A DNA stretch of 64,000 bases from Deltaproteobacteria bacterium (lineage in GTDB: Bacteria; Myxococcota; Myxococcia; Myxococcales; Anaeromyxobacteraceae). A program made the translations under genes and the position numbers. The notes beneath the pieces were generated by a model, which did not search any database, was not told the origin of the DNA, and saw nothing but the letters and a program-made list of their open reading frames with translations. The DNA lies in the NCBI GenBank assembly GCA_016214955.1, contig JACRMN010000011.1, positions 185,897-249,896 on the forward strand. The letters are read 5' to 3'. This document shows positions 30,795-34,472 of the stretch, in pieces. Within the stretch, counting starts at the first letter, position 1. Each line of letters begins with the position of its first letter.

Positions 30795-30835
30795 GCCTGC
30801 CGGACCCCGGGGCCGGGTGGGGCCCCGGGGCAGGC
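30795..30835. terminator. Strong bidirectional terminator hairpin after recA
   Basis: An outer stem GCCTGC (30795-30800)/GCAGGC (30830-30835) encloses CCCCGGGGCC (30805-30814)/GGCCCCGGGG (30821-30830) with a 6-base loop. It lies exactly between the recA stop and the stop of the converging peptidase/barrel gene. Confidence 0.7.
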
Positions 30836-33800
30836 TAGAAGAAGGCCCAGCGCAGGGTGACGTTGGTCACCCAGCGGTGCGTGCCCTCCAGCGCCGGCGT
30901 CTTCTGCCCGCCGATGTCCCACGGGTAGCCGAAGTGCACCCGGAGGAGCAGCGGGCCCAGGAGGGCGTTCACGCCCAGCACGCCGGTGAGGGTGCGGGCC
31001 TGCCACAGGCCGCGGGTGGTGCCGTCGGGCTGTCGCACGTCCTTCCACTGGGTGGCGACGCCGCCGAAGTCGAGGGCGGCCACGCCCTCCAGGTAGTCGA
31101 AGAAGAAGAGGCGGACGAGGTAGTCGAGGGGGAACTGCAGCTCGGCGTTGGCCACGTAGTAGTAGGGGCCGATGAGGAAGGAGGTGTCGAAGGGCGAGAA
31201 CCCGCGCAGGTTGTCGGCCGAGGTGAGCCACCAGGAGCGGGCCCAGCCGTAGCCGTTGCGGTCGGGGGCGAAGCTGCCGCCGGCCGCCGCCCGGAACATG
31301 AGGTTGGAGCGGCCCACGAGCGGGACCCAGCGGGCGGCGTCGAGGCGGGCGAAGCCGTGGGCGGCGTTGCGCCACGGCAGCCAGCCGCCGCCCAGCTCCA
31401 GCACCAGCGAGCCGCCGTCGATGGGGCCCGTGTAGGGGTCGAGGCGGACGGTGTCGTAGCCGAAGCGGGCCGTTGCCACGGTGCTGGGGGTGATGGAGCC
31501 GTTGTCCCGGCGCCAGGCCTGGGTGGTGGAGGGCGGCGCCAGCACGCGGCCCGAGCATGCCACCGGGAGGCTCACCGAGAAGTCGGTGAGGCAGTAGCGC
31601 TCGCTGGCCCCGGCCTGCAGCTCCAGCTCGAAGCGCCGGAAGCGATCGAGCGGGAAGCGGAGCCCGCCCAGCAGGCCGAAGTCGCGCTGGAAGAAGGCCA
31701 GCGAGTCGTTGAAGCGGTCGACCTGCTGGTTGACGAAGTGGAAGGCGCCGAGCACCAGGCCGGTGCGCGACTGCCGGTCCTCGTAGAGTACCAGGGCCTG
31801 CGTGTAGTCGAAGGAGCCGAGCACCGCGACGTCGAGGTACAGCGACCGGTCGCGGAGCACGTCGGCGAGGAGCAGGGCGGCGCGGCCGGCCACCGCGTTC
31901 CCGCCGCCGCCGCCGAAGATCATGCCGTTCTCGGGCCGCCAGTTCTGCCACGAGTACGGCTGGTAGGGCGGGGCCTCCTCGGGGATGGGCTCCCGGGCCG
32001 GCTCCTGCACGGGCCGGACGGCCGGGGCCACCGCCTGCGGCGGATCCTCGAGCCAGGCCACCCGGGGCACCTCCACCAGCCGGAAGCGGCCGCGGTGGAA
32101 GGTGCCGGCGAAGAGGCCGCGCCCGAGCGGCGCCGCCGCCGGTGAGGCGAGGCCGGTGGAGAAGTCGGTGAGCCGCGCGATCCTGCCGTCGGTCAGCCGG
32201 TGGATGTCGGTGCGGCCGCCGGCGTCGGAGGAGAAGAGGATGGAGCCGTCGGCCTGGACGGAGGGGTAGCGGTCCGCGGTGGGGGCGGTGGTGAGGCGGG
32301 TGACGGCGCCGCTCGCCGGGTCGAGCAGGAAGAGGTTGGTCTTGCCGTGCTCGGTGGCGTCGCTGGCGAAGGCCAGGCCGGCCGCGCCCCACGAGAGGTC
32401 GCGCTCGGCGTAGTCGTCGCGGGTGAGCTGGCGCGCCACGCCGCCGGTCCCGGGCACCACGTAGACGTCCCGCTGCCCCTGCTCGGTGAGGGCCACGAAG
32501 GCGATCTGCTTGCCGTCGGGCGAGAGGGCCGGGCTGCCCAGCTCCACGAAGCGCTGGCCGCTGGGCGCGCGCACCTCGACGCGGCGGCGGCTCCCCAGGG
32601 AGATGCGCGGCGCCTTGCCCTCCCTGGGAGGCGTGTGGGTGAAGGGCACGACGTAGAGGGCGTCGGCGTCGGCGGCCTGGGCGGTGAAGACCAGCTCGTC
32701 GCCGGAGAGCGCCAGGATGGAGGTCTCCACCGGGTGCAGGCTCTCGACCCCGGGCTGGTTGTCGCCGACCACGTGGACCGCGCCCTTGGGGTGGCGCACG
32801 TCGAAGAGGTAGATGTGGGCGCGGCCGCGCTCGCGGTCGAGGGCCCGGTAGGCCACCAGCCAGCCGTCGGGCGAGGCGGCGTAGTGCTCCGCCTCCCCCG
32901 GCAGGTCGGAGTAGTCGCGGACCTGGGGCAGGTCCTGCCGGGCCCTGAGGTAGTCGGGGAAGTAGCGGCGCTTCAGCCAGGCACGCCAGCGGATCTCCAC
33001 CTGCTCGGGCGGATCGTTGAGCACCCGCCGCACCAGCGCCGCGAAGCCGCCCCGCTGCCGCCCGCCGCCGGACTGGCCGGCGGTGGCGCTGGGGGCGTAG
33101 GCGCTCTCCAGGAGCTCCTGCACCTTCTCGCCCCCGTAGGTCTCGGCGATGAAGGCCACCCGCGCCTGCCCGATCTTGTAGGTGGGGATGTAGCCGCGGG
33201 CCCGGTCCTCGACGAACGGGATCATCATGTAGCCGCGCTCCGGGTCCGGGTTCCAGACCAGGTCGCGCAGGTACATGTCGGTCTCGGCGTCGAGGCCGTC
33301 CTTGGTGTAGTACTCGGCGATGCCCTCGATGAACCAGAGCGGCAGGTTGTCGAGGAAGTCGAGCTGGTCGGCGCCCGCGATGTCGAGCAGCTTCTGGATG
33401 GTGAACTGGTGCACCATCTCGTGGGTCGAGACCTCGCGGAACTTCTCGTGGTCGCCGAAGTAGGGCAGCGACATCTTCAGGTCGCGCGGCGAGGTGACGC
33501 CCAGCACCGACTCGCCCACCTGGAAGATGTTGGTCGTCTGGAACTCCCGCTGCGAGCTGTAGAGGAAGTAGGGGATCTGCTTGGTGGGTGAGTAGTGGAA
33601 CTGCTCCACCAGCTTGAGGAAGGTGGCCCGGATGGCCGGCAGCGCCCGCTCGGCGATGGCCCGCTCGCGCCGGTAGAAGTAGAGCCGGATGCCGCCCTTC
33701 CCGCCCGAGGGCGAGGGCACGTCGAAGTGCTGCCACTCGAAGTCGTACCAGCTCACCTGGTTCTGGCCGGGCCGCTCCGGCAGCACGTAGTTCTGCTCCA

Positions 33801-33933
33801 GCCCCTGGCGGCGGGCGCGCTGGCGATCCATCTCGCGCAGCGCCTGGCCCACGTCGGGCGGCGCGGGCAGGAGCGGCTGCGCGGCGGCGGGGCCGGAGGC
33901 GGCCAGCAGGAGGGCGAGGACGAGCCGCTTCAT
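30835..33933 (-). CDS. Metallopeptidase - beta-propeller - Omp85-like barrel fusion protein
   Basis: A 1032-residue exported protein starting at ATG 33933 (AGGTGA before it; signal peptide [19 protein letters not shown]). Residues ~90-260 are a gluzincin domain of the peptidase-MA type: HEMVHQF (HExxH, about 170) and the downstream Glu in [14 protein letters not shown]. Residues ~350-640 contain TolB/PD40 propeller blades ([40 protein letters not shown]). Residues ~690-1032 are beta-rich and end in [11 protein letters not shown], a C-terminal aromatic barrel signal, with an Omp85/bacterial surface antigen character ([16 protein letters not shown]). All catalytic residues look intact. It could be a surface-anchored protease. 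Confidence 0.85.
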
Positions 33934-34001: not shown

Positions 34002-34472
34002 TCACTCCGGCACCACCGGCCAGGCCCGGCCTCCGAGTCGGAGCTGGAAGCGCCCTGGCTCCGGCTCCTCGAGGAGCGCGCCCAGTGCCGCCTGGGCGGC
34101 GCGCTGGAAGCGGGCCCGGTGCTCGCCCCTGGCGCCGCAGTGGAGCACCCCGTCCTTCCCGAGCCGGAGGGTGGCCGGGTCGAGCGGCTCGGTGCCGCCG
34201 TCGGTGAGATGCAGGAGGAGGCCGCCGGCTTCGGGCGTGACGCCGCGCACCCCGTAGGGCGCGTGCGGCACCTCCACCAGCCCCACCTCCCGGCCGATCT
34301 GGACCTGGTAGCGGCCGTCGGGGCGGCGCCGGAGCGAGCCCCAGAGGACCTCCAGGGTGCGGGCGTGGGTGATGGGCTCACCCCGGTGGCGAAAGCGCCC
34401 CTCGTCGTCGATGGAGAGGCCGCTCTGCGCCCGCAGCGCCTCCAGGGGGTCCTGCTCGCCGGATGCGGTCAC
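34002..34472 (-). CDS. DUF1285 family protein
   Basis: About 156 residues from GTG 34472, the only plausible start near the conserved region, though no Shine-Dalgarno is visible. LSIDDEGRFRHRGEPITHAR, VLWGSLRRRPDGRYQVQIG and VGLVEVPHAPYGVRGV match the DUF1285 pattern of a small beta-rich protein of unknown function common in Proteobacteria. It is 68 bases upstream of the peptidase/barrel gene on the same strand. Confidence 0.72.
   Translation of the reverse strand: MTASGEQDPLEALRAQSGLSIDDEGRFRHRGEPITHARTLEVLWGSLRRRPDGRYQVQIGREVGLVEVPHAPYGVRGVTPEAGGLLLHLTDGGTEPLDPATLRLGKDGVLHCGARGEHRARFQRAAQAALGALLEEPEPGRFQLRLGGRAWPVVPE

Follow-up and report, generated by a model that had tools for sequence, protein, structure and literature searches.

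The stretch of Myxococcota DNA analysed here (64,000 nucleotides from a genome of the Anaeromyxobacteraceae; the window) encodes a real three-part outer-membrane protein, common across phyla, in which a predicted zinc peptidase, a TolB-like beta-propeller and a BamA-type barrel are combined. Domain identity, conservation of the catalytic residues and the Omp85 type of the barrel are supported by tool results, and the structural assignment is strong; the function, that is the activity, the substrate and any role of the barrel beyond anchoring, is what we infer. The family, as yet uncharacterised, is matched in about two thirds of the sampled Bacteroidota genomes and in over half of those sampled from the window's phylum.

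Gene and protein

The coding sequence occupies positions 30835-33933 of the window as a single open frame of 1032 aa, running from an ATG at 33933 to a TAG at 30835; the initial annotation had placed it correctly without giving a strand, which is the minus strand for the gene and for the features mapped on it below. Codon-position GC (0.71/0.48/0.99) provides a strong coding signature, and the long plus-strand frames overlapping the gene are devoid of this pattern and represent shadows. With third-position GC close to 99%, a simple dN/dS calculation gave no usable information, and nothing near the gene matched an RNA family, a sigma-70 promoter or a terminator. Residues 1-18 (33880-33933) have the appearance of a signal peptide on sequence inspection, the AlphaFold2 model placing a helix at residues 2-12, and the protein is probably exported via Sec.

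A single-sequence scan against Pfam and NCBIfam proved insufficient as sole evidence, as it gave only a sub-threshold hit for the peptidase and none for the barrel, and profile as well as structure comparison was needed. Structure models, which the initial annotation had proposed as a check, were built from 9-11 sequences and recovered the peptidase, the propeller and an Omp85-type barrel with moderate confidence (mean pLDDT of the domain models 62-65). Sequence, profiles and models thus agree with the original description of three domains joined in one exported 1032-residue chain, and the features listed there (aromatic C-terminus, signal peptide, PD40/TolB repeats and HEMVH) are all present.

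Peptidase domain and its inactive clade

The metallopeptidase domain comprises residues 56-335 (32929-33768) and is of gluzincin type, as indicated by Peptidase_MA_2 in members of the alignment and by a profile match to M9 collagenase. Against the isolated domain of the query protein Peptidase_MA_2 stays sub-threshold (18.2 bits, cut-off 32.4); it matches ten out of ten members of the peptidase-domain alignment at E <= 0.1, the best at 6e-19. When the peptidase profile was compared with solved structures, the M9 collagenase 7wss came out best (E 3.9e-5), followed by more collagenases and, weakly, by M1-type aminopeptidases, a single de novo design (E 0.04) being the exception; the natural peptidases among these matches (M9 collagenase and M1-type aminopeptidase chains) are all gluzincins. 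HEMVH (residues 171-175; 33409-33423) lies on model helix 162-186, and the predicted third zinc ligand E203 (33325-33327), part of the IEGIAEY stretch, on helix 199-210, which corresponds to the HExxH motif with a glutamate on the following helix that characterises gluzincins (Peptidase_MA clan). All four residues (H171, E172, H175, E203) are invariant in the 29 Myxococcota sequences compared, where the peptidase also has the highest share of invariant positions (25%, propeller 12%, barrel 11%). The intact HExxH gluzincin domain of the initial annotation, which had named a non-metallopeptidase fold around HEMVH as the observation that would speak against it, therefore holds, the model giving the gluzincin helix arrangement and the profile a collagenase match.

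Of the 121 distinct full-length relatives, which represent several phyla, 103 keep HExxH and the downstream glutamate, hence all four catalytic residues. In the other 18 the active site is lost, with full architecture and length retained; they form one side of a single branch (support 100), corresponding to one change on the tree, and are drawn from the Bacteroidota sample (L042, L141, L142, L144, L209-L222). Most of them have none of the four residues, and two have a glutamate left at a single position (KERS; YKDE/EGSE at the third-ligand position). The inactive form mostly is the sole match at E < 1e-50 in the sampled genomes that have it, where scoring covered no more than four candidates per genome. 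Since the peptidase is dead and the architecture kept, propeller and barrel have a non-catalytic role in this Bacteroidota clade, and outside it the active site has been maintained by selection. With active and inactive clades both occurring in nature, the role of catalysis is open to direct test.

Propeller, linker and barrel

Residues 336-640 (32014-32928) form a TolB-like beta-propeller, recognised by PD40, by sequence and fold matches to TolB and in the AlphaFold2 model. PD40 matches the query protein at 8e-9, and among solved structures E. coli TolB (3iax) comes closest by sequence (1.4e-15), as TolB does by fold (1.6e-10), in line with the TolB/PD40 blades noted at the outset. The TolB equivalog TIGR02800 reaches 53.8 bits, far from its cut-off of 343; judged by sequence, the propeller is homologous to TolB and the protein is not TolB itself. 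A low-confidence linker follows (residues 641-680; 31894-32013), pLDDT being below 50 across most of 629-723. No Pfam family for POTRA was matched in the protein, whose interval between propeller and barrel is this short linker, nor was one for patatin, and the combination of patatin and POTRA that marks PL-Omp85 proteins (PlpD) is thus not found.

The Omp85-superfamily beta-barrel extends over residues 681-1032 (30838-31893), with 14 predicted strands, and is based on profile comparison, AlphaFold2 and Foldseek. In the single-sequence Pfam scan of the query protein neither PF01103 nor another barrel family was matched, and PF01103 matches one of the 11 sequences of the family alignment (3.5e-12). 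Comparison by hhalign of the family profile with the aligned Omp85 proteins of the window's genome, BamA included, gave a probability of 96% (E 2e-9), and in it LRGF (residues 909-912; 31198-31209) aligned with the L6 motif of BamA. All 50 matches listed by Foldseek for the barrel model belong to the Omp85 superfamily (BamA, Toc75, FhaC, Sam50, TamA). In the barrel-only AlphaFold2 model, L6 is preceded by nine strands and followed by five (mean pLDDT 62, TM-score about 0.5); the canonical Omp85 barrel consists of 16 strands, eleven before L6 and five after it. Residues 1021-1032 (30838-30873) constitute a C-terminal aromatic strand resembling a BAM signal, and its aromatics are, like LRGF, conserved. 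The homology to BamA, TamA and FhaC and an L6 motif of the RGF/Y type are the marks of the superfamily, and the Omp85-like barrel with aromatic terminus of the initial annotation is accordingly supported at the level of models and profiles, as is its predicted service as outer-membrane anchor for protease and propeller.

Because the barrel is even-stranded with a C-terminal aromatic strand, both ends of the protein would be periplasmic. In PlpD, the single fusion of an enzyme with an Omp85 barrel to have been studied, the enzyme domain was found by experiment to be kept in the periplasm (PMC11116518). By barrel topology and this precedent, peptidase and propeller would sit at the outer membrane facing the periplasm.

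Distribution and second copy

The initial annotation had implied that the fusion is rare and had suggested an architecture search; once run, this revealed a widespread family, matched in 114 of the 195 genomes that represent the window's phylum (mostly by a single gene of full length, although some of the weakest hits cover the propeller only), in 134 of the 198 sampled genomes of Bacteroidota, the phylum of a Flavobacteriales MAG (one to four copies each), and in other phyla. Full-length HExxH relatives were detected by genome scan in Zixibacteria, Neomarinimicrobiota, Gemmatimonadota, Bacteroidota, Ignavibacteriota and Acidobacteriota, and a divergent one in Bipolaricaulota. About five divergent copies are present in a Bipolaricaulota (Acetothermia) MAG (G206, L058). 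If the barrels of Bipolaricaulota are real, an outer membrane is implied in that lineage. A frame change divides the gene in one draft genome (L015, G041:C77), possibly through an assembly error.

The window's genome itself possesses a second, divergent copy of the same peptidase-propeller-Omp85 plan (C17:127031-129832), with HELTH, WLTEGL, PD40 (3e-14) and Omp85 (8e-12). A search with this second form gave a match in 30 of 41 genomes, the window's own included; some relatives carry the second form only, others the query form only. Neither form was matched in three genomes of one family (G056, G057 and G058, two of them 94-97% complete and one 69%) and in one genome of another family (G044, 74% complete), and the protein is therefore not universally required.

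Gene neighbourhood

Directly upstream of the gene lies a small conserved ORF of 156 aa (34002-34472, minus strand) without a Pfam family, which is found next to it in five out of five Anaeromyxobacter-like loci compared and is a possible operon partner. recA is situated downstream in convergent orientation in Anaeromyxobacter-like genomes, and the neighbours in Myxococcaceae differ from those of the Anaeromyxobacter-like loci. In 28 of 30 Bacteroidota loci (L161-L190) rnr (RNase R) directly precedes the intact-type gene, as it does in L035/L036, and murA does so in both Zixibacteria loci (L031:6381-7640, L054:6401-7657). An ORF of 1501 aa, assigned by eye as TamB-like, is located two genes upstream in an Ignavibacteriaceae MAG (L036:1156-5658). 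No universal gene partner was found across the lineages compared, and as the neighbours vary by lineage, they indicate neither a partner nor a substrate.

Proposed function and alternatives

We see the balance tilting slightly towards an outer-membrane-anchored, periplasm-facing metallopeptidase acting on envelope proteins, a reading that follows from the placement of the enzyme in the periplasm by topology and by PlpD. A POTRA-less Omp85-superfamily barrel would anchor the TolB-like propeller and the zinc gluzincin at the periplasmic side of the outer membrane, and the propeller might be the platform binding a substrate or partner. Proteolysis of envelope proteins would be the most likely task, be it in quality control, with misassembled outer-membrane proteins and lipoproteins as targets, or in the maturation of specific substrates. 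Its counterpoint is the dead Bacteroidota clade, by which proteolysis is dispensable for the retained function in some lineages. One may even regard the protein as a non-catalytic scaffold in all lineages, HExxH being kept solely to bind zinc or to stabilise the fold, as the full length of that 18-sequence clade would suggest; this we hold to be improbable, since E172, which zinc binding does not require, varies no more than the ligands do both in Myxococcota and in the 103 intact relatives, and since loss of the active site was one event on the tree. The initial annotation had spoken of a self-inserting surface protease. TpsB-type Omp85 relatives such as FhaC do translocate proteins, and peptidase and propeller could, in an autotransporter-like way, exit through or around the barrel, but in a fusion that begins with the enzyme and ends with an even-stranded barrel the N-terminal domains lie in the periplasm, and a folded peptidase and propeller differ from a beta-helical passenger. 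The enzyme domains of PlpD and FplA, moreover, are not on the surface (PMC11116518), and surface exposure is very improbable overall. Self-insertion is unsupported as well, the C-terminal aromatic strand resembling an ordinary BAM substrate signal.

A further alternative, to which we would grant a minor yet appreciable probability, is that of a barrel-assembly or translocation factor, in which the barrel inserts or exports outer-membrane proteins, the propeller is BamB-like and the peptidase is accessory or trims clients. The Omp85-type barrel with its L6 RGF motif, the retention of propeller and barrel in the dead-peptidase clade and the TamB-like gene of the single Ignavibacteriaceae locus point this way, as does the resemblance to a BamA-BamB fusion proposed for WD40-Omp85 proteins in the main text of PMC4104836. 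No POTRA domain was found, however, the predicted strands number 14 instead of 16, PlpD has an Omp85 barrel and is not an assembly factor (PMC11116518), and four genomes, two of them 94-97% complete, contain neither form. A processing unit tied to barrel assembly, as suggested by the initial annotation, is possible. Returning to the periplasmic metallopeptidase, the fusion of an envelope protease with a BamA-type barrel would represent a new coupling of proteolysis and outer-membrane biogenesis. More speculatively, and with considerable reservation, the family may be viewed as a widespread class of outer-membrane proteases, where Omp85 barrel, BamB/TolB-like propeller and gluzincin act as one client-recognising machine with periplasmic cleavage, and from which a Bacteroidota branch dropped catalysis and kept the barrel-propeller function.

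Comparison with known systems

M9 collagenases and other members of Peptidase_MA, among which the closest solved structure to the peptidase profile is found, have in common with our protein the gluzincin fold, in which a glutamate follows downstream of HExxH, but are secreted soluble enzymes without the fusion to propeller and barrel. BepA (M48) is a periplasmic HExxH protease acting in outer-membrane protein assembly, which is soluble, has a TPR domain and is separate from BamA. At the outer membrane BamA likewise supplies an Omp85 barrel and BamB a partner propeller, but as separate proteins, with POTRA domains in BamA, 16 strands and no peptidase. The BAM accessory subunits BamM and BamP of Flavobacterium were considered as relatives and rejected, as the words peptidase, propeller and WD40 are absent from the paper on them (PMC12611786). 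No entry recognisable as the query protein was seen in the outer-membrane proteomics of M. xanthus (PMC3222651), and a literature search for the three-part peptidase-propeller-Omp85 architecture turned up no paper.

In PlpD and the patatin-like Omp85 proteins an enzyme also precedes the Omp85 barrel, but PlpD is a phospholipase instead of a peptidase, has one POTRA and no propeller, and forms a homodimer (PMC11116518). The 'Metallo' subfamily of Omp85 resembles our protein in its N-terminal metal-dependent enzyme; according to the main text of PMC4104836, this enzyme belongs to PF00149 (calcineurin-like phosphoesterase family), not to the HExxH peptidases, and there is no propeller. By domain description the protein is best filed in the named, uncharacterised WD40-Omp85 subfamily, introduced in 2014 by Heinz and Lithgow with function unknown and a BamA-BamB-like role proposed (PMC4104836, main text), whose N-terminal TolB-like propeller, C-terminal Omp85 barrel and lack of POTRA are all found here. 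The main text of that paper nowhere uses the word "peptidase", although the domain may be in its supplementary tables, and the peptidase domain of the family is undescribed in the readable literature; all full-length relatives recovered by us, in contrast, carry it in an intact or degenerate form.
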